Below are positions 25,998-35,058 of a stretch of DNA of 64,000 nt, in pieces; position 1 is the stretch's first letter; every line of letters starts with the position of its first letter. A program made the position numbers and the translations under genes. The DNA comes from Acetobacter okinawensis JCM 25146 (GTDB lineage Bacteria; Pseudomonadota; Alphaproteobacteria; Acetobacterales; Acetobacteraceae), in NCBI RefSeq assembly GCF_000613865.1, contig NZ_BAJU01000007.1, positions 1 to 64,000 on the forward strand. The letters are read 5' to 3'. The notes below the pieces were generated by a model. It saw only the letters and a program-made list of their open reading frames with translations. It searched no databases and was not told the origin of the DNA.

Positions 25998-27955
25998 GGA
26001 GCGGGTTTTGCCCATGATGTGGGGAGTGTGTAATCCCCACCAATACGGGTAATGTTGGTGTGGTTCATGTCCCCCTTCATGGGCGTGTCGGGTAGGGTTC
26101 CGGCCAGTTGTTGCAGCAGAATGCGGCGGACTTCGGCTATGGTTATCGGGTTGGCCTGTGTGGAATGCCCCGAGTTGCGCACAATCAGTTCGCTTTGCAC
26201 TCTTGGGTCATGTGCGCTGGTGTAAGCAACAACACCATCATCCGCCGTGCTGAGTGGCCCATCGCCCAATACGGGAATAATGGAGTGGCTTTGCACCTGT
26301 GGGGCTACAGGAATGGAGGCTAGAGCCTGTATGAACGTACTGCGGGGCGACATGCCATAAACGCTGCCAAGGCGGCTGGGGCTCATGTCCACCTTAAGAG
26401 CCCCCGCATTGCCCTGAAGGATCTGCTGGGTCACTTCCGTAATCGCTGCGGGAAAGGTGACCATGCGCCCGATCAGATGGGCGATGGAAAAATCGGCCAG
26501 ATAACTGCCATGCTGTGGTGTGGAAATAAAAACAACACTTTTGACGTCGGGCATGGGAGTGGGAAAAAGGGCCTGCTCCAGTAACTGCCTTACATTGGCA
26601 GACAGGGTCAGGCTGGATAAGGGACGTGGGGTCAGTTCGTTCCACAGTGCATCATGCGGGTCAATGGCCAGCATTTTTGCCAAAAGTCCCCCCTGACTGT
26701 GGCCGATCAGGGTGATCTGGCCCAGCGCAGGGTCTGCCTGTGTGCCCCCGAGGTCGCGGATGGTGCGGTTTAATGCATCGCGGAGTTGCAGGGCGGAATA
26801 GGGGATGGGGTTGCCCGTTGCATAGGAGAAAAACCAGAATTCAAAATGGGCGCGTATTTCCGGGTCTTCCAGCAGGTCATTGACCATATCCGCCCAGCGT
26901 CCGGGGCTGGAGGCCGTGCCATGAATCAGAACCACAGGCATATGGCCATACTGGTGGGGCTCCATGGCAATAAGCTGGGCACGTTTATTGAAGATGTTTC
27001 CGTCCAGAAAACCCTTGTATTCAACTGACCAGTCTACGGCATTGTTCAGGCTGATCGCGCGTGATGCCGTCTGGTCATATTGCAGGGGAATAACCCCCTC
27101 TGTTGTGGGCAGGGCAGTCGTTTGGTCAATGGTGGCCAGTGTCAGGCGCGCATGGATGTGGTCGGTAAAAATCTGCTGGCGTGGGTTGGGTATTTCCATA
27201 AATAAATTAACGGGAATACGTAGCTTGTCGGTAATGGAAAAGGAAATCTGGCTATTGGCTGGGGGCTGCGGTACCGCTGCGAGAGGTTCGCCCAGCCCGG
27301 CCCTGCGGTAAATATTCTTGATCCCACGGACCGACAGACGCGCCGTGGGGCGGAAGTCGGTTAGGGTGTACCCATACCACTGTTTCTGTTCAGGTGTGGT
27401 GGACAGGTCCAGTGTGGCAAAGGGGAGCGTCCAGCGCTGTGGTGTTATGTCCACGGGGTTGCCCATGGCTTCGGTCAGGCCAAACATGTACAGGTCGCAT
27501 GCTTGGCGAAAATGCACGTCATATGGGTTGGGTTTTGCGTCGTCCGGCCCGGTGGGGTTAAGGTAGGCATAGGCGTACAGGGCCGTGGCCATATAGGCAG
27601 CGCGGTCGGAGTTCTGGCGGGCAAGCAGGTAATTCAGCTCTGCAAGGGCAAATAACTGGTCCTGTAGGTCTGGTGTGTAAAACTGGGCCTGTGTGCTTGC
27701 CCGTAATGTGGCAATCGCCTGTGCTGGTTTCTTTTTCCATAACGGCAGCAGGTTCTGGCGTTCCAGCACAATGCGTGTGGTGTTGCTGAGTGTGCGCCCG
27801 CTCAGCGTGCTCTGGCTGCGCTCCTTGTAGCTGTCCGTCAGGCTCAGGCGTTGCACCGTAACGGGGGCAGCACAGCCTGAAACGGCCAGACACAGGACAA
27901 CACACGAAAAACGTGAGCGCAGCGTGCGAGAGAGCGTGGAGGTGGGGGCGGGCAT
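25994..27955 (-). CDS. Alpha/beta-hydrolase lipoprotein
   Basis: A 653-residue predicted lipoprotein: the signal peptide ends in VSGC (Cys near 28), about 300 residues of unassigned region follow, then an alpha/beta-hydrolase domain with oxyanion motif LIHGTASSPGRW (near 345), nucleophile elbow GHSQGG (Ser near 425) and a late GHS as possible catalytic His region. It is probably a surface or periplasmic lipase/esterase. It is the first gene of a pair with the DUF4105 protein, suggesting joint work on lipids or lipoproteins. The N-terminal half has no domain I can name. Confidence 0.78.
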   Translation of the reverse strand: MPAPTSTLSRTLRSRFSCVVLCLAVSGCAAPVTVQRLSLTDSYKERSQSTLSGRTLSNTTRIVLERQNLLPLWKKKPAQAIATLRASTQAQFYTPDLQDQLFALAELNYLLARQNSDRAAYMATALYAYAYLNPTGPDDAKPNPYDVHFRQACDLYMFGLTEAMGNPVDITPQRWTLPFATLDLSTTPEQKQWYGYTLTDFRPTARLSVRGIKNIYRRAGLGEPLAAVPQPPANSQISFSITDKLRIPVNLFMEIPNPRQQIFTDHIHARLTLATIDQTTALPTTEGVIPLQYDQTASRAISLNNAVDWSVEYKGFLDGNIFNKRAQLIAMEPHQYGHMPVVLIHGTASSPGRWADMVNDLLEDPEIRAHFEFWFFSYATGNPIPYSALQLRDALNRTIRDLGGTQADPALGQITLIGHSQGGLLAKMLAIDPHDALWNELTPRPLSSLTLSANVRQLLEQALFPTPMPDVKSVVFISTPQHGSYLADFSIAHLIGRMVTFPAAITEVTQQILQGNAGALKVDMSPSRLGSVYGMSPRSTFIQALASIPVAPQVQSHSIIPVLGDGPLSTADDGVVAYTSAHDPRVQSELIVRNSGHSTQANPITIAEVRRILLQQLAGTLPDTPMKGDMNHTNITRIGGDYTLPTSWAKPAP

Positions 27956-28064
27956 CCGAGTCTCGATTTTAAATCGCGGTCAAATAATGATTGATGGTGT
28001 AGGGTGTCCGCGCCATGCTGGCAAATCCTGTGCGGCCATGGGCATGTCCTATGGGTGCGGGCCA

Positions 28065-28643
28065 ATGGGGGAGATGTCTGGGTTGAGGTTGCTTTGCTGT
28101 GCATCTGCGTTGCCTCTGGCTGTCAGCCGGGGCGAACTGCCCGGAGGGGCAGACGTGCTGGCAACCGGTTTTGACCTGCAAAAAGCGGCGGCTTACCTGC
28201 CAGCGACCAGCCGCTTAACACTCCATTATGCCCCCGATGTTGCGGCCCCCGATGTGGACGGGCCTTTTCTGTGCTCGCAAAATGCTCTGCGTGACAGGGA
28301 TTATGGCCTGTGGGCAGGGCGGAATTTGCGGGATGTAGGGCCGGAGGAGCAGTTATCCTTTTTGTCCGATGTGGCGTTTGCTCCACCGGGGGGCGAGAGC
28401 TTTGCCGCCAGCTACCAAAGAATGGCCCACTGGCTGGATGTTTTGGAGCAGACGGTGCCAGCCGCTTTGGTGCTGGCGCGGCCAGCGTGCGTGCGTAACC
28501 TGATCCTGCGCGTGCTGTATCCGGGAGAAAACCCGGTGAGCATGGCCCATGCTGCCCGTGTGGATGTCTTGTCCAATAGTTACAGTCTGCTGAGCTGCCA
28601 CGCAGGCCGGTGGCGCGTGGCTATGCTGTCAGCCCCGATGTAA
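28065..28643 (+). CDS. Histidine-phosphatase-like protein lacking catalytic histidines
   Basis: A 192-residue protein with the layout of the phosphoglycerate-mutase/CobC histidine phosphatase fold: an N-terminal strand (GLRLLCCASALPLA) where RHG should be, LRDRDYGLWAGRNLRDV, FLSDVAFAPPGGESFAASYQR, and a strand LVLARPACVRNLILRVL where the second catalytic His (VTHGG) should be. Both catalytic histidines are replaced, so it is probably not a phosphatase. The start could be ATG 28065 or 28074. A cobalamin riboswitch begins about 60 bases downstream, and CobC is of this fold, which hints at a cobalamin link. This is inference. Confidence 0.6.
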   Translation: MGEMSGLRLLCCASALPLAVSRGELPGGADVLATGFDLQKAAAYLPATSRLTLHYAPDVAAPDVDGPFLCSQNALRDRDYGLWAGRNLRDVGPEEQLSFLSDVAFAPPGGESFAASYQRMAHWLDVLEQTVPAALVLARPACVRNLILRVLYPGENPVSMAHAARVDVLSNSYSLLSCHAGRWRVAMLSAPM

Positions 28644-28699
28644 AGGCGCTCCCCTTTTTTGCTCGCGGTGCTCTGGGCTTGCCGCTATAGGTTTAAGCT

Positions 28700-28890
28700 G
28701 TCGGTCAAAGGTTCCGTGCAAACGGATGAAAAGGGAACACCGTAAGCTCTGCTCAGGAGCAAGTCGGAGACTGTGCCCGCAACTGTAGGCAGTAGCCTGC
28801 CACCCGTTGCCCCATAAGGGGCAGCCACTGGTGCATGCCGGGAAGGCAGGGTGGAGTGCGCATCTGCAAGTCAGGAGACCTGCCTTTGTC
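28700..28890 (+). promoter_or_regulatory. Cobalamin riboswitch
   Basis: The conserved cobalamin aptamer elements occur in order: ggttccgtgc, aaaagggaa, gactgtgcccgcaactgta, gccactg, ccgggaaggc, and the B12 box aagtcaggagacctgcc ending near 28884. It is on the plus strand and ends about 50 bases before the start of the unknown 147-residue gene. It should repress expression of that gene, and the coupled dehydrogenase, when adenosylcobalamin is plentiful. Confidence 0.93.
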
Positions 28891-28938
28891 TTGCAAGCCA
28901 TGCCACCGGGCGGGACGGACCGGGGGCGGGGATGTGTG

Positions 28939-29382
28939 ATGTCACGGTATTTTCTGCCGGGTTCCAACCCGTATTCTTTTGCATGTTTTTCCACGGCGGG
29001 AGCGGGAGTGCACCCTGTCCTGCATCGTCTGCTCAGTCTGGCACCCAAACGAACAGAACTGCTAGCCTTTGTTGGGGAGAATGCTCCTGTCGCGGAGGAA
29101 GAGGCTCTGCGATATGCCGGGGGGCAGATGCTGGAAGTTTTTGCGCAGAACCTGCCACGTTCTTACGGAGAGAAAGGGCAGAGGCTGGAAGACCTGTTCC
29201 GTATGATGCTCGAGCATGCGCTTGATTTGGCCCACAAGGCCCGCTTTATGCACGAACAGGGTCCGCAGCAGACGGACACCACCCGGCAGGCCCTGATTAT
29301 GGCCTATGTGGCCGCGCAACATGTGATTGGTGCGCAGTGCAGAGCCATGGATTTGTATAACAGCAAAGGAACATGCTCATGA
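28939..29382 (+). CDS. Hypothetical protein under a cobalamin riboswitch
   Basis: A 147-residue protein, mostly helical and soluble, with no signal peptide, membrane segment or metal-binding cluster. I recognise no domain: it begins MSRYFLPGSNPYSFACF and has a long amphipathic middle (EDLFRMMLEHALDLAHKARFM). It is not CbtB, CbtA, BtuB or a Cob/Cbi enzyme, the usual cobalamin-riboswitch targets. ATG 28939 has GGGGAT about 6 bases upstream. Its TGA overlaps the ATG of the next dehydrogenase (ATGA), so both belong to one B12-controlled unit. Function unknown. Confidence 0.7.
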   Translation: MSRYFLPGSNPYSFACFSTAGAGVHPVLHRLLSLAPKRTELLAFVGENAPVAEEEALRYAGGQMLEVFAQNLPRSYGEKGQRLEDLFRMMLEHALDLAHKARFMHEQGPQQTDTTRQALIMAYVAAQHVIGAQCRAMDLYNSKGTCS

Positions 29383-30275
29383 AAATCGGATTTATCGGTC
29401 TTGGGGCAATGGGCCACCCTATGGCAAAGCGTCTTCTCAAGGCGGGGCATGCTCTTGTTGTCTATAATCGCACAGCCGCAAAAGCTGATGACCTGGTCGC
29501 GCAAGGTGCGGTTGTGGGCGCAACACCCGCTGCGGTCGCCCACGACGTTGATATTGTTTTTTCAATGCTGTTGGATGATGCCGCTACTCAGGATGCAACA
29601 TTCGGCCAAAACGGGATAGCCGCAGGGTTGTCACCCCATGCTGTGCACGTCTGTTGCAGCACAATTTCTCTCGCTCAGGCACGCCGGTTAAGAGATGGCC
29701 ATGCCGAGCGTGGGCAAACCTATGTTAGCGCCAGTGTTCTGGGGCGTCCTCCCGCAGCGGAGGCGGGAGAGTTATTTGTCATGGCCGCAGGGCAGGCTGA
29801 TGTGCTGGGCCGGCTGGAACCAGTGCTCCAGTGCTTTGGCCCAAAGATTTTTCGGGTGGGTGATGACTCGGTGCAGGCTAATCTTGTAAAACTGTCTTTG
29901 AATTTCATGATCTATTCGACCATAGAGCAAATGGCAGAGGTATTTGCCCTGAATGAAAAAGCCGGAACAGACCCACATACAATTTTTGAGATCATGACCG
30001 GGAGCTTCTACAATGCACCGGTTCACAAGAACTATGGCAAGCTGATGGTTGATCAGGAGTATGACCATCCCGGAGCGCCCGTTACACTCGGGCTGAAGGA
30101 TGTCGGCATGTTCATGAGCGCGGGAGGGGATTATGGTGTGCCACTCCCTTACGCATCTGTCGTGCGTGACCGTTTACTGAGCGCTATCAGTGCGGGTGAT
30201 GCGGAGCGAGATTTTGTTGTTATACAGGAACGCGTCCGGCAGGAGAGTGGCTTAAAGCAGGACAGCAAAAAATAG
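29379..30275 (+). CDS. 3-hydroxyisobutyrate dehydrogenase-family oxidoreductase
   Basis: This 298-residue enzyme of the beta-hydroxyacid dehydrogenase family has an N-terminal Rossmann motif (KIGFIGLGAMGHPMAKRL), substrate-binding segment STISLAQARRL replacing the usual DxSTxxP, the NLVKLSLNF block with catalytic Lys near 171, and the all-helical C-terminal domain with LGLKDVGM. It reduces or oxidises small hydroxyacids with NAD(P). I choose ATG 29379 over 29373 because AAAGGA is then 7 bases upstream and the start overlaps the previous stop. Control by the upstream cobalamin riboswitch is inferred from coupling; B12 dependence of the pathway is unknown. Confidence 0.85.
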   Translation: MKIGFIGLGAMGHPMAKRLLKAGHALVVYNRTAAKADDLVAQGAVVGATPAAVAHDVDIVFSMLLDDAATQDATFGQNGIAAGLSPHAVHVCCSTISLAQARRLRDGHAERGQTYVSASVLGRPPAAEAGELFVMAAGQADVLGRLEPVLQCFGPKIFRVGDDSVQANLVKLSLNFMIYSTIEQMAEVFALNEKAGTDPHTIFEIMTGSFYNAPVHKNYGKLMVDQEYDHPGAPVTLGLKDVGMFMSAGGDYGVPLPYASVVRDRLLSAISAGDAERDFVVIQERVRQESGLKQDSKK

Positions 30276-30293
30276 GCCAAGACTCTCCAGCCG

Positions 30294-30920
30294 TTAGGGT
30301 ATTCTGGATGTGGCCAGCTTTAACCCGAAAGCAATAAATACAAAACCGGTCATACGGTCGAGGATTTGAACAGCCTTGGGCTGGCGCAAAAGGCGGCTCA
30401 AGGATGCTGTTGCGGTAATCAGCACTGCAAACCAGATGAGTGTGATGACCACATGCAGGCAGGCCAGAAAAAAGCTGTATCGCGCGACTGATGCTCCGGC
30501 AGGCACGAACTGCGGCAGAAACGTAATATAAAAAACTCCCATTTTGGGATTGAGAAGATCAGTCAGGAAGCCACGCAAAAAAGCACTCGAACCTCTGGAG
30601 GAGGGCGAACAGCTTTCGGTCTGTAAGGTCGTTCTGGGCTTAAAAAGGAGTTTGCCTCCAAGCCAGATAAGGTAGAGTGCTCCAGCAAATTTAAGCACAG
30701 TATAGGCTAACGCAGAAGCACGTAATAACGTGCCCAACCCGAACGATACAGCCGCGCCCCAGATCAGGCACCCCAGCGCAATACCGGATGCTGCCAGCAT
30801 GGCAGGGCGTTGCCCGTCAACTGTTGCTGTGCGCAGCACCAAAGCAGTGTCTACACCCGGTGTGATCGTCAGAACAAACGCTGCCAGCGTAAAGGCGAGG
30901 AGTAGGGGGATATCAATCAT
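30294..30920 (-). CDS. LysE/RhtB family amino acid exporter
   Basis: A 208-residue inner-membrane protein with six helices and the family N-terminal motif TITPGVDTALVLRTATVDGQ, then GALYLIWLGGKLL, DLLNPKMGVFYITFLPQF and a final helix. LysE/RhtB proteins export amino acids such as homoserine, threonine or lysine. It converges with the dehydrogenase, with 18 bases between stops. Substrate unknown; a second family member is at 35179. Confidence 0.9.
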   Translation of the reverse strand: MIDIPLLLAFTLAAFVLTITPGVDTALVLRTATVDGQRPAMLAASGIALGCLIWGAAVSFGLGTLLRASALAYTVLKFAGALYLIWLGGKLLFKPRTTLQTESCSPSSRGSSAFLRGFLTDLLNPKMGVFYITFLPQFVPAGASVARYSFFLACLHVVITLIWFAVLITATASLSRLLRQPKAVQILDRMTGFVFIAFGLKLATSRIP

Positions 30921-31075
30921 CGCACGATCTTAACACATCAATCATGCGCAGGCATGGGGCACACCCAAAGTTGCTCAACAAAGGGGCATGAAATCCTGCA
31001 TACCATAACTCGCGGATGTGCCGCAGGCAGCCCAGAGCAGATGGTGTCCGCCCCGGTAGCCAATGCGTATGTAGT

Positions 31076-33241
31076 TTACCAGCGATAGGCCAAAGTCACG
31101 AACATGGCGCGCCCCGGCGCCCATGCGCATGCGACATTGCGGGTGCAGACCGCAACATATCGGCGGTCCGTTATGTTGGTTCCGTTAAGCTGGATAGATG
31201 TGCGTCTGTAATCAACATGCGCAACAATATCCCATACCAACTGGCTGGGAACGGCAAATGTCTCCGGTAGAGAGCCAGCCGTGTTGCCCGTGTAACGTAA
31301 ACCGACCCCCGCACCGAAGATAAGGTCATGCAGGATATGGATGTCCCGTTTAAGGAAGAGCGAGGCCATGTGGGATGGCACGGCAACAGGCCGCTGATTG
31401 ATTTGCGAGGTGGTTGTGGATTTTGTTATTCTGGGGTCCTGATAGGTAAAAGAAGCCAGAAAATCTATTTTCCCCGGCAGGCGACCCATACCTTCGAACT
31501 CAAAGCCTTTGGTCCGTTGTTCACCTGCCTGAATATCATAAGTTGAATCCGCTGGGTCCGGGGTGAGGATATTGGTTTCAACCAGATCAAAAAAATCGGC
31601 TGTCAGCATCAGGTGTTCGCCCCACGGCGTACCCGGCAATGGCTTGTATTTTAACCCGGCTTCAATCTGCTTCCCACGGGTTGGCAGAAAAGGGGTATTC
31701 AGGCGTGTGGTGCCAACCTGAGGCTGGAATGATGTTGAATACGCCACATATGGTGCGAACCCCAAAGGTGCTGTGTAAAGCAGACCTGCGCGGCCGGTAA
31801 ACGCATTGTTTTTTTGTGGTGTCTGCAAACCGGTGAGGTTGTTTACAGTCAGGCTCTGGGTAAAATCCCCTCGTCCTGAAAGCGTTAAATGGAAATTATG
31901 CCAGTCAGCCTGTTCCTGCGCGTAAAGTCCGGTCTGGCTTTCTGTCTCGTTTGTATTGGTTGTGGTGCCATATGATGGCCATGTAATGGCGCGGTACACC
32001 GGATTATAAAGATCCAGCGAGGGCGCATTACCCTGCCCACGACGGTTTGCCAGAAAATCACTGCGGAAATCAACGCCCACAAGCAGTTCATGCTTGACGG
32101 GACCAGTTGTAAGTTTGAGGTCGGAGCGCGTATCAAGCGTGACATTGTTGTAATTGGCAGATTGGCGGAGTGCCTGACGCGTAATGGTGCGCTGGTCGCT
32201 GGAAAGCGCTTTGGTTGTTACAAAGCGGTAGTCCAAGTCCAAATGGGCATAACGCATATTTTGGGTAATGCTCCAGTTGGGCAGAATACGGCGTGTCAGG
32301 CTATAGCCAATGGCAGCCTGCCGTTTGGAATACACGTCATAATTGGCATCGCTGGATAAGAAGTCGCGTGCGATGCGTCCATATTTTGTTGCGGTAATTG
32401 TGCCCGCAGCAGGCAGGAACTGTGCTGTAGAGCCCGCATCCAACTGCTCAAAACTGGCGAGTATGGTAAAATCAGTTTTGTCGTCCGGCTTCCATCTTAG
32501 GGATGGAGCCACGTAAATCTCATTGTTTTTGATGTTGTTTGCATAGGTGTTTGATTTGCGGATCAGACCATTAAAACGCCATAACAGTGTTTTGGAGGGG
32601 TTGACCGCGCCACCAATATCGGCCGCCCCCTGAACCCGGCTGTAGGACCCTGTTTGAAAATTGATCTCGTTTTTTTGTCCTGCATTCGGGCGTTTGCTCA
32701 CCGCGTTAATAATGCCGCCAAGTTGCCCTGACCCATAAAGGGCGGATGTTGCGCCGCGGAGCACGTCCATTTCCTCCAGCCCCCATGGTTCGATACTGAA
32801 AGACTGGGAGGATGTTGCATCCGGCGTGCGCGTGCCATCCAGATAGATGTCGGGCGAAAACCCCCGGATCGTACCAAAATACCCTCTGGGATCGTCCTTG
32901 GACCCGTAGTCAGAAACACCAGCCGCATAGCGCACGGCTTCCGAAACACTGCGCGAGTTCAGGATTGCCATCCGTTCCTGAGTAATCACGGTAATGTTCT
33001 GGGGTGTCTGCTCGATGGGTGTATCTGTTTTGGTGGCGGAAAACCCGTTACGCGCCAGCAGGCCGTGCCGTAATGCCGAGACGTCGATTGTTTCGTCTTT
33101 GCTGGTTTTGTCCTGGGGGACGGGCTGTTTGACTTTGGTGGGTTTATCCTGCGGAGCCTGCGGTGTTGTTGCAAAGGCATGTGTTGCCAGAAGCAGCAAA
33201 AACGAAGACGCAAGTAAAACTGTGCGGACGGAGTGCTGCAT
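31076..33241 (-). CDS. TonB-dependent siderophore receptor
   Basis: A 721-residue outer-membrane receptor of the FhuA/FpvA type: a signal peptide ending near ATHAFA, a TonB-box-like region, plug domain (TPQNITVITQERMAI, then GFSPDIYLDGTRTP, VLRGATSALYGSGQLGGIINAVSKRP), then a 22-strand barrel finishing in aromatic LAYRW. It imports a ferric siderophore with TonB-ExbBD energy. I choose ATG 33241 at the signal peptide; an upstream in-frame codon at 33280 is possible. A Fur box lies 48 bases before this start. An AraC regulator is immediately upstream on the same strand. Confidence 0.93.
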   Translation of the reverse strand: MQHSVRTVLLASSFLLLLATHAFATTPQAPQDKPTKVKQPVPQDKTSKDETIDVSALRHGLLARNGFSATKTDTPIEQTPQNITVITQERMAILNSRSVSEAVRYAAGVSDYGSKDDPRGYFGTIRGFSPDIYLDGTRTPDATSSQSFSIEPWGLEEMDVLRGATSALYGSGQLGGIINAVSKRPNAGQKNEINFQTGSYSRVQGAADIGGAVNPSKTLLWRFNGLIRKSNTYANNIKNNEIYVAPSLRWKPDDKTDFTILASFEQLDAGSTAQFLPAAGTITATKYGRIARDFLSSDANYDVYSKRQAAIGYSLTRRILPNWSITQNMRYAHLDLDYRFVTTKALSSDQRTITRQALRQSANYNNVTLDTRSDLKLTTGPVKHELLVGVDFRSDFLANRRGQGNAPSLDLYNPVYRAITWPSYGTTTNTNETESQTGLYAQEQADWHNFHLTLSGRGDFTQSLTVNNLTGLQTPQKNNAFTGRAGLLYTAPLGFAPYVAYSTSFQPQVGTTRLNTPFLPTRGKQIEAGLKYKPLPGTPWGEHLMLTADFFDLVETNILTPDPADSTYDIQAGEQRTKGFEFEGMGRLPGKIDFLASFTYQDPRITKSTTTSQINQRPVAVPSHMASLFLKRDIHILHDLIFGAGVGLRYTGNTAGSLPETFAVPSQLVWDIVAHVDYRRTSIQLNGTNITDRRYVAVCTRNVACAWAPGRAMFVTLAYRW

Positions 33242-33288
33242 GAACGTAGAGTGCTCATCATAAATGTTGATGGCCTCCAATAGTGCAT

Positions 33289-33305
33289 TTGATAATCATT
33301 ATCAA
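33289..33305. promoter_or_regulatory. Fur box upstream of the TonB receptor
   Basis: The 17-base sequence TTGATAATCATTATCAA is an almost perfect palindrome and matches the core of the Fur consensus. It is placed to repress the receptor under iron-replete conditions. Confidence 0.85.
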
Positions 33306-33389
33306 TATAATCCTGCGCGTTGGCGGCGGGCATCCCCTATAATGTCATCGTGCCTGTGGCTTATTGGCACCACGTCTTGCCATCTGACC

Positions 33390-34199
33390 CTATGTTTGCA
33401 AATTCCGGAAATGGACGGGCGATAAACCCATCAGGTTTGTAAATGCTTTTGCAAATGCACTCAGCGATGCGTAACCGACATTGGCCGCGACATCAGTAAC
33501 CCGATGGCCTTCAGCCAGCAGGCCTGCCGCGCGGAAGAGGCGCGCCTGCGTAATCCAGTCCTGCCATGTCATTCCTGTTTCTTCCTGAAAATGACGGCGG
33601 AAACTCCGTTCTGACATGCCAGCCTGTTGCAGCGCTCCAGTCAGGTTTGCAAGGCCGAGGTTGGCAAGGGCCGCATCCATGGCGCGCACCAAAGACGGGT
33701 GGGTTGCCCGTGGTAACGTAAAAAGTCGGTTAGTTTTCGCCTGCATCTGCTCCACACAGAGCAGGCCAAGAGTGTGGAAAAAACTCTGGGCAATGGGGGA
33801 CTGCTCGGCTGCCCCAGCTTGCCAGCGCAGAGTATGGAGCAACATCTCCTGTAGCATGGTCGTTATGGGGAATATCTGCACATGCTCTGTCTGGACATGT
33901 GGAAAACAGGCCGGGTCAAAATAAACGGAAACACCATCCAGATCACAGATCATGGTTCGGTGCCGTGTTTGTGCTGGAATCCAGATAGCGTGAGCCGTGG
34001 GCAGAAGGTGATGACCATCCGGGCCTTCAACCTGTGTTGTTCCACGTCTTGCGTAAGTAATCTGGTGGCACGGGTGGGCGTGCCAGTCGTAAAATATGGC
34101 GCAAGACGGATTGCGGAAGGCAAAACCGGGCTTTGCTGAAGTGTCCAGTCTGTTCGCGACAAGAACGCTGTGTGTTTCCGTGGCTGTCAGAGTTTTCAT
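33390..34199 (-). CDS. AraC-family transcriptional regulator
   Basis: A 269-residue regulator. The first ~110 residues form a cupin-like sensor (IFYDWHAHPCHQITYARRGTTQV), and the last ~100 the double helix-turn-helix (LTGALQQAGMSERSFRRHFQEETGMTW, then VTDVAANVGYASLSAFAKAFTNLMGLSPVHFR). Its 3' end is about 150 bases from the siderophore receptor start, and it is divergent from the methyltransferase-LysE genes, so it may control either. Regulators of this architecture often govern exporters or siderophore uptake. The inducer is unknown. Confidence 0.92.
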   Translation of the reverse strand: MKTLTATETHSVLVANRLDTSAKPGFAFRNPSCAIFYDWHAHPCHQITYARRGTTQVEGPDGHHLLPTAHAIWIPAQTRHRTMICDLDGVSVYFDPACFPHVQTEHVQIFPITTMLQEMLLHTLRWQAGAAEQSPIAQSFFHTLGLLCVEQMQAKTNRLFTLPRATHPSLVRAMDAALANLGLANLTGALQQAGMSERSFRRHFQEETGMTWQDWITQARLFRAAGLLAEGHRVTDVAANVGYASLSAFAKAFTNLMGLSPVHFRNLQT

Positions 34200-34284
34200 T
34201 GGCCGATATCCGGTTGTTTATGGCCGGATAGCGTTAGACGGCCAATTGCCCATACCTTACCTTGAACCAACAAGGAAAGGAATC

Positions 34285-35058
34285 ATGATGTCTGTTGCTC
34301 GTACATCTCACGATGCTCGGATTGTTGCGCAGTTCACACGTTGGGCAAAACCGTTTGCTGAACTGGCTATTCACGCAGAGGCAGACAGCTTGGCGCAGAC
34401 GCTCGCCGCCTGTGCTGTGTGCTCCGACATGCCCGTGCTGGATGTTGCCTGCGGCCCCGGGATTGTCGCCTGTGAACTGGCGCGTGCCGGAGCACAGGTT
34501 ACAGCTCTTGACCTGACACCCGCCATGATTGAGCAGGCCCGCCAACGTGCGAACAATATGGGTGTGACAGTTGCATATCATATTGGCTCTGCGCTGCATT
34601 TACCGTTTCAGGCCGAGAGTTTTGACCGGGTGGTGACACGCTACAGCTTGCACCACATGCTGGAGCCCCAGAAAGTTTTGGCGGAAATGGTGCGTGTTTG
34701 CCGTCCCGGTGGCCGGATTATTGTCATTGACGCCACTCCAGCTCCGGAATGCCAGAAAAACTATGACCGGGCGGAAACACTCCGGGATCCTTCGCATACC
34801 AGTGCCCTGACACTGGATCAGTTACTGTCGTTGGGTGCTGAAGCAGGGCTGTCTCCGGTTATGATGCGCCAGTATCGCCTTGAGTCCCGTTTGCACGATC
34901 AGGTCGCGCCGGAGGATTGGAGTGCTCTGCAGGCACTGTTTGCAGAGGATATTGCAGGCGGTGAGGATCGTCTGGGCATGGGAGCGTGGGAGAGTGCGGA
35001 CGGGATCCGCTTTTATTTCCCCATTTCAATCGTGGCATGGAGCAAAGTTGTCCGGTAG
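34285..35058 (+). CDS. SAM-dependent class I methyltransferase
   Basis: A 257-residue methyltransferase with SAM motif I VLDVACGPGIVACELA (near 50), motif II ALDLTPAMIEQA, DRVVTRYSLHHM, and MVRVCRPGGRIIVID. The substrate is not evident; UbiE-like small-molecule methylases are the nearest class. ATG 34285 follows AAGGAAAGG. It is divergent from the AraC regulator and about 120 bases before a LysE-type exporter on the same strand, so AraC-methylase-exporter may form one response unit, for example to a toxic small molecule. Confidence 0.87.
   Translation: MMSVARTSHDARIVAQFTRWAKPFAELAIHAEADSLAQTLAACAVCSDMPVLDVACGPGIVACELARAGAQVTALDLTPAMIEQARQRANNMGVTVAYHIGSALHLPFQAESFDRVVTRYSLHHMLEPQKVLAEMVRVCRPGGRIIVIDATPAPECQKNYDRAETLRDPSHTSALTLDQLLSLGAEAGLSPVMMRQYRLESRLHDQVAPEDWSALQALFAEDIAGGEDRLGMGAWESADGIRFYFPISIVAWSKVVR

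Follow-up and report, generated by a model that had tools for sequence, protein, structure and literature searches.

Gene Organization of the Locus

The window, that is, the whole stretch of 64,000 nucleotides that was analyzed, carries a cobalamin riboswitch followed by a small gene, here termed X. The features of the locus were as follows:

27924..28643, + strand: histidine-phosphatase-like protein (PF00300, 2.2e-7), outside riboswitch control
28692..28901, + strand: cobalamin riboswitch aptamer (RF00174; cmscan, 98.6 bits, model 1-189)
28776..28780, + strand: CCCGC, putative L5 side of an L5-L13 kissing loop (read from the sequence; invariant in 13/13)
28906..28931, + strand: expression platform with a putative P13 hairpin (read from the sequence; core invariant in 13/13)
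28939..29382, + strand: gene X, an open reading frame of 147 aa; conserved family, no family match
29373..30275, + strand: beta-hydroxyacid dehydrogenase of the 3-hydroxyisobutyrate / tartronate semialdehyde reductase superfamily (PF03446, 3.3e-41; PF14833, 5e-15)

The ATG at 28939 opens a frame of 147 codons with its stop at 29380-29382, in agreement with the first-pass annotation, which had described an unrecognized gene of 147 residues. A longer mechanical ORF from 28807 was not credible, since its start falls inside the aptamer. The dehydrogenase gene overlaps X by 10 nt, a feature absent from the first-pass annotation, and in the window clade the two genes probably share one mRNA under riboswitch control. 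None of the 25 NCBIfam models shown was matched by its product above the cut-off. Among the compared loci, this gene adjoins X only in the window and in A. okinawensis, which share 95% DNA identity over 7.2 kb. In both, a segment of about 5.7 kb (29373-35058) lies behind X, holding the dehydrogenase, LysE, an FhuA-like TonB receptor, an AraC regulator and a methyltransferase; a DNA comparison showed that two sister loci lack it. The dehydrogenase overlaps the stop of X because this segment entered behind it. Upstream, the product of 27924..28643 showed a weak likeness to CobC (TIGR03162, 2e-6, 27.3 bits against a cut-off of 162.9). The catalytic RHG motif was absent by eye near its start, so the protein may be inactive.

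The Cobalamin Riboswitch and Its Expression Platform

When the whole window was scanned with cmscan, RF00174 was matched with an E-value of 2.1e-23 and 98.6 bits against a gathering threshold of 31.5. The match covered positions 1-189 of the 189 in the model, which confirms that the aptamer is complete, as had been claimed. The upstream placement was also correct, while the distance from the end of the aptamer to the ATG of X was 37 nt rather than the roughly 50 bases first given. The 3.16-Mb genome contained three RF00174 matches, including the one before X. By eye, the second, at C121:88878 on the contig of the window, lies upstream of a long cobN-like frame, not directly, and the third, at C81:15341-15560 (L034:9842-10061), stands before a frame that resembles a porin and lies at the end of a contig. 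A porin under a cobalamin riboswitch is not odd, since a riboswitch precedes the porin-cbtB-cbtA genes on pAPA01-011 of A. pasteurianus.

In the putative P13 hairpin, CCGG at 28906-28909 pairs with CCGG at 28920-28923 and leaves the loop GCGGG (28910-28914), to which CCCGC at 28776-28780 is complementary. A G-rich, Shine-Dalgarno-like stretch (28922-28931) overlaps the hairpin, and the Shine-Dalgarno region, which the second CCGG enters, contains GGAGG in several species and GGGGGCGGGG in the window. For comparison, 13 of the 14 riboswitches lying directly before X in the genus were aligned (G018 was left out), and CCCGC and CCGG-GCGGG...CCGG were unchanged in all 13. Because these elements are invariant, the L5-L13 and hairpin pairs give no covariation. 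The single-sequence local fold draws the P13 hairpin, with z values of 0.39 and 0.38, no better than shuffled sequences, and the z value of the whole-leader fold energy against shuffles was −0.94. The support for the hairpin therefore comes from conservation and not from energy. The layout is the same as the L5-L13 kissing-loop layout described in the available part of PMC9600662. Judged from its sequence, the switch of the window looks complete in anatomy. The riboswitch is ordinary in kind, and its target is new among those checked.

Sequence and Predicted Structure of X

Pfam and NCBIfam returned no match to X at E ≤ 1, and known cobalamin-regulon families (Cob/Cbi, Btu, Cbt, MetE and Nrd) were thus not matched in these libraries. 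Likewise, PHROGs and PADLOC gave no match to the X of the window at E ≤ 1, and one of two other family members reached a PHROG at E 0.35. A Pfam scan of the 20 members of the family alignment (A1) produced noise, namely six unrelated families, each hit by one member, with a best E-value of 0.067. The profiles of MesX (PF08908) and MesD (PF01717) matched neither X nor these 20 members, and searches of the PDB by sequence and by profile gave noise only. The claim that X does not resemble the known targets of this riboswitch agrees with the lack of any family match in these libraries.

The AlphaFold model, built from 13 sequences (pLDDT 80.5, pTM 0.74), predicts five helices (26-34, 38-45, 54-68, 76-106 and 113-141) and no strand, in line with the helical protein that had been proposed; residues 1-21 were of low confidence. 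Foldseek found no match of this model in the PDB at E ≤ 0.001, the best E-value being 0.39. The fold of PduO-type cobalamin adenosyltransferases, which are small helical B12 proteins, was not found for X by Foldseek, and the comparisons with 6d5k and 3ke5 gave E-values of 3.5 and 4.9 and Foldseek probabilities of 0.08 and 0.04, respectively. No fold or motif hinting at the biochemistry of X was recognizable in the PDB profile and Foldseek searches. Hence, the family and structure searches that the first-pass annotation had proposed revealed no homology to a cobalamin gene. A literature search by title or abstract found no paper on X.

Distribution and Selection

When 100 genomes were searched with the single sequence, X homologues appeared at 23 places; the 20 carriers, among them the genome of the window itself, all belonged to the window's genus, where the distribution is patchy (20 of 49 genomes). 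The profile search found X in 15 of 397 genomes of the family, in four genera, a count that includes the window's own genome and the doubtful G229, which accounts for one of the four genera. The two hits in G229 (L080 and L083; E 1.7e-4 and 3.1e-4) look like chance matches or very remote kin. In the class-wide sample, the window's own genome was the single carrier among 385. The named carriers are Acetobacter, Komagataeibacter and Gluconobacter; X also occurs on plasmids of Acetobacter, Komagataeibacter and Novacetimonas, annotated as "hypothetical protein" in the rows shown.

Members of the family are about 125-160 aa long. Thirteen residues are invariant in the 20 rows of A1: H25, P26, P36, R38, P73, E84, F87, R88, A94, G131, A132, A136 and M137. 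The dN/dS ratio was 0.12-0.27 in 11 of 11 pairs, three of which had a dS of 1.4 or more, where the estimate is poor. The nine pairs with dS below 1.5 all fell within 0.12-0.27, the two above 1.5 gave 0.24 and 0.13, and the X of the window against that of A. okinawensis gave 0.118. In A. lambici, X is broken by a TAG and is thus dispensable there; broken or partial copies were seen in A. lambici/G005 and in G033. On this sequence evidence, X is a real, conserved protein family under purifying selection.

Association of X with Cobalamin Riboswitches

In 28 of 30 testable loci, which are related and not independent, X has a cobalamin riboswitch upstream on its own strand. The window's genus contributed 19 of 20, with the riboswitch directly before X in 14 and before a Rieske gene immediately preceding X in 5. 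Of the 23 places in the genus, two in G033 and one in G008 were left out because they sit at contig edges, and two of the 19 positives, both in G005, are broken or partial copies of X. The other ten testable places were the further loci of the profile search without the two in G229, and nine were positive: seven had a gene for a 171-aa protein between riboswitch and X, one had a Rieske gene between them, and in G221 the riboswitch lies about 370 nt upstream of X with no intact 171-aa gene. On pAPA01-011, too, X is preceded by a riboswitch of its own. The idea that orthologues always follow a cobalamin riboswitch was therefore correct for most loci, and "always" was too strong. At the Acetobacter locus L031, no riboswitch was found in 19 kb, even with a relaxed threshold. 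At L088, none was found upstream, and the likeness to a sister locus breaks off between riboswitch and X, near the contig start.

The 49 genomes of the genus held 181 cobalamin riboswitches, about 3.7 each, in a count whose filters lose some weak matches. With so few per genome, chance adjacency to X is remote. Furthermore, the contexts of X differ strongly and mostly follow the tree of X, though not wholly, the PepSY context appearing in three places of the tree, which indicates that the link is not one locus that was copied. It is thus well supported that X is a new, regular member of the cobalamin-riboswitch regulon in acetic acid bacteria. The proposal of a new B12-regulated function is favored by this link and by the lack of homology to cobalamin genes, while the three guesses offered for it (replacement of a B12-dependent enzyme, adaptor, uptake accessory) were not separated by the data.

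Gene Neighborhoods of X

Around X, genes of the B12 regulon (a BtuB-like receptor, an ABC transporter, cbtAB and metE) and genes for B12 independence (mesX/mesD and a Rieske oxygenase) were both present. The gene directly joined to X was a Rieske gene, a PepSY_TM gene, the 171-aa gene or, in the window, the dehydrogenase. In the group of the window clade, A. lovaniensis, A. syzygii, A. lambici and G020, X stands after the histidine-phosphatase-like or another gene. In the Rieske group (L041-L044 and L084), mesD-mesX is divergent from a unit of a riboswitch, a Rieske/VanA_C oxygenase gene, X and a small gene, and X overlaps the Rieske gene in all of these loci. The same gene order around X was present on an A. 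ascendens plasmid. The small gene encodes 90-103 aa, with a winged-helix look by eye and no library match. On pAPA01-011 (L103:9462-10177), a 92-aa gene with relatives in the Rieske group has its own riboswitch beside X. The riboswitch-linked oxygenase (L041:8325-9419 and relatives) is an extra paralogue: at least one relative at 50-62% identity was found in each of the 49 genus genomes, and two in most, and the extra copy (75% or more) occurred in 10, once as a partial gene. No riboswitch could be located ahead of the extra copy in G004.

In the PepSY group, X is followed by PepSY_TM, and a divergent TonB receptor gene with its own cobalamin riboswitch is present where the contig reaches. X overlaps or abuts the PepSY_TM gene in A. 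indonesiensis, A. persici, A. malorum, A. orleanensis and A. cerevisiae, and G007 has a BtuB-like receptor between the two. Back-to-back cobalamin riboswitches, with X-PepSY_TM one way and the TonB receptor the other, were observed in L045:8067-12808, L046, L048 and L050, the order in L046 being X, receptor, PepSY_TM. A literature search on such a riboswitch-linked PepSY_TM protein found nothing.

The Komagataeibacter/Gluconobacter group has metE or mesXD in most loci together with a riboswitch, the 171-aa gene and X. The 171-aa gene, whose product has a helix-turn-helix look by eye, overlaps X in 8 of 9 such loci; neither this protein nor the 90-103-aa one had a significant Pfam match. Further units of this group that stand behind a riboswitch are DUF2147, a lone MetE-N-like protein with a Rieske oxygenase, and a TonB receptor with binding protein, permease and ATPase. 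At L087:4644-15390, five cobalamin riboswitches are clustered within 11 kb. At L087:7832-10010 and L102:12845-15023, of the Komagataeibacter type, the Rieske/VanA-type oxygenase stands beside a lone protein like the MetE N-terminal domain (PF08267, 3e-30), and the pair lies behind a cobalamin riboswitch (L087:10047-10284, − strand). These two proteins are possibly a methyl-transfer pair. On plasmids, X follows the porin-cbtB-cbtA operon of pAPA01-011, and on pGXY010 it lies near metE and near genes for a BtuB-like TonB receptor, binding protein, permease and ATPase, names given by similarity below the NCBIfam cut-offs.

Co-occurrence with Methionine and Uptake Genes

The 49 genus genomes were compared by presence of X, and the Fisher p values below ignore relatedness. 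MesX was present in 18 of 20 genomes with X and 13 of 29 without (p = 0.002), and MesX or MetE in 19/20 and 16/29, respectively (p = 0.003). The Rieske copy (identity 75% or more) was found in 8/20 against 2/29 (p = 0.009), and PepSY in 8/20 against 6/29 (p = 0.20). These figures are leads, since p takes account of neither kinship nor the number of tests. Over the genus, MetH was present in 48 genomes, MesX in 31 and MetE in 4. The mesX of the window's genome (G000:C125:79921-80887) is split between two frames that overlap, owing either to a frameshift or to an error of assembly, and was counted as present. G007 has X without MesX or MetE, and G048 and G017 have the Rieske copy without X. PepSY as an obligate partner of X was rejected by co-occurrence, with 12 of the 20 X genomes lacking PepSY_TM at E ≤ 1e-40.

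Possible Role of X

X is probably part of how acetic acid bacteria cope with B12 shortage, and membership in the B12-riboswitch regulon and a low-B12 role, taken together, are likely. As the conserved RNA anatomy suggests, plentiful adenosylcobalamin would be bound by the aptamer and the L5-L13 kissing loop would form. The P13 hairpin would then hide the Shine-Dalgarno region and leave X untranslated, and the overlapping dehydrogenase would be silenced with it in the window clade. When B12 is scarce, X would be made, so that the sign would be repression by B12 at translation. X itself may act in the cytosol as an accessory or adaptor when B12 is low.

Tentatively, X may serve an oxygen-dependent, B12-independent methionine branch of MesX/MesD and the riboswitch-linked VanA-type Rieske oxygenase. 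This choice was made since X is coupled to the Rieske oxygenase beside mesX-mesD in one group, lies near metE or mesXD in another and co-occurs with MesX. Against it, mesX-mesD is divergent from the riboswitch and not under its control, X is tied to no single partner, and MesX is held by 13 of the 29 genomes without X. The genomes with X but neither MesX nor MetE (G007) or with the Rieske copy but no X (G048 and G017), the missing riboswitch of L031, the broken X of A. lambici, the lack of a telling fold or motif and the activity of MesD plus MesX in E. coli without X also speak against it. A stand-alone replacement of methionine synthase, an instance of the enzyme replacement first suggested, is unlikely because X is small and helical, MetH is nearly universal in the genus, and all but one of the 20 X genomes hold MesX or MetE. 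It also seems rather unlikely that an undescribed oxygen-dependent methyl/methionine pathway for B12 exhaustion is formed by X, as its dedicated adaptor, with the riboswitch-linked Rieske oxygenase, joined in Komagataeibacter by the lone MetE-N-like protein, which has a cobalamin riboswitch of its own.

Among the roles ranked, help in the cytosol with the uptake of cobalamin or cobalt or with the handling of B12 inside the cell, for instance passing on or reducing incoming corrinoid, comes after the methionine-branch accessory and is possible but doubtful. It would fit the joining of X to PepSY_TM in five Acetobacter species, with the divergent riboswitched receptor, as well as the BtuB-like receptor of G007, the position behind porin-cbtB-cbtA on pAPA01-011 and the receptor and ABC transporter genes on pGXY010. 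However, the co-occurrence with PepSY was without significance, and neither the X transcript of the window nor the Rieske-group operon contains an uptake gene. Third is a regulator, or partner of a regulator, that tunes other genes at low B12, a somewhat less probable role. The HTH-like 171-aa gene and the winged-helix-like gene next to X speak for it, and the variable neighbors fit a trans-acting regulator; yet X has no recognizable DNA-binding fold, and the two neighbors were read from their letters by eye without significant Pfam support. The patchy spread, plasmid location and broken copies could also suggest a mere passenger, weakly selected or degenerating on plasmid-borne B12 islands, which is very improbable given the low dN/dS and the riboswitch control retained across contexts.

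Comparison with Known Systems

Pairs of a PepSY_TM protein and a TonB receptor serve siderophore-type uptake. In several species such an operon begins with X, but X is predicted to be helical and has no named domain. The available part of PMC3766115 sorts the targets of cobalamin riboswitches into the synthesis of B12, its transport, the transport of cobalt, and isozymes of B12-dependent enzymes. Like members of the RF00174 regulon, X has a leader with the aptamer, kissing-loop complementarity and a platform that spans the Shine-Dalgarno region, and it is probably a gene of the low-B12 state; unlike them, it showed no sequence or fold kinship to these classes in the searches made. In Gluconobacter oxydans, the portion of the RNA-seq study available (PMC5756330) names a single cobalamin riboswitch, located upstream of a TonB receptor. 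A recurrent riboswitch target of no known family offers a direct, testable entry into the low-B12 physiology of acetic acid bacteria, in many of which the oxygen-dependent MesX/MesD route is present, and the riboswitch-linked Rieske oxygenase and the lone MetE-N-like protein are pointed to as further members. According to the part of PMC7857596 available, MesX/MesD makes methionine without B12 and requires O2, its methyl donor had yet to be identified in 2021, and MesD plus MesX work in E. coli without X, which the enzyme thus does not need there. This system, with its PF08908/PF01717 core and its B12-independent function, adjoins X in the Rieske group and co-occurs with it, whereas X is homologous to neither protein.
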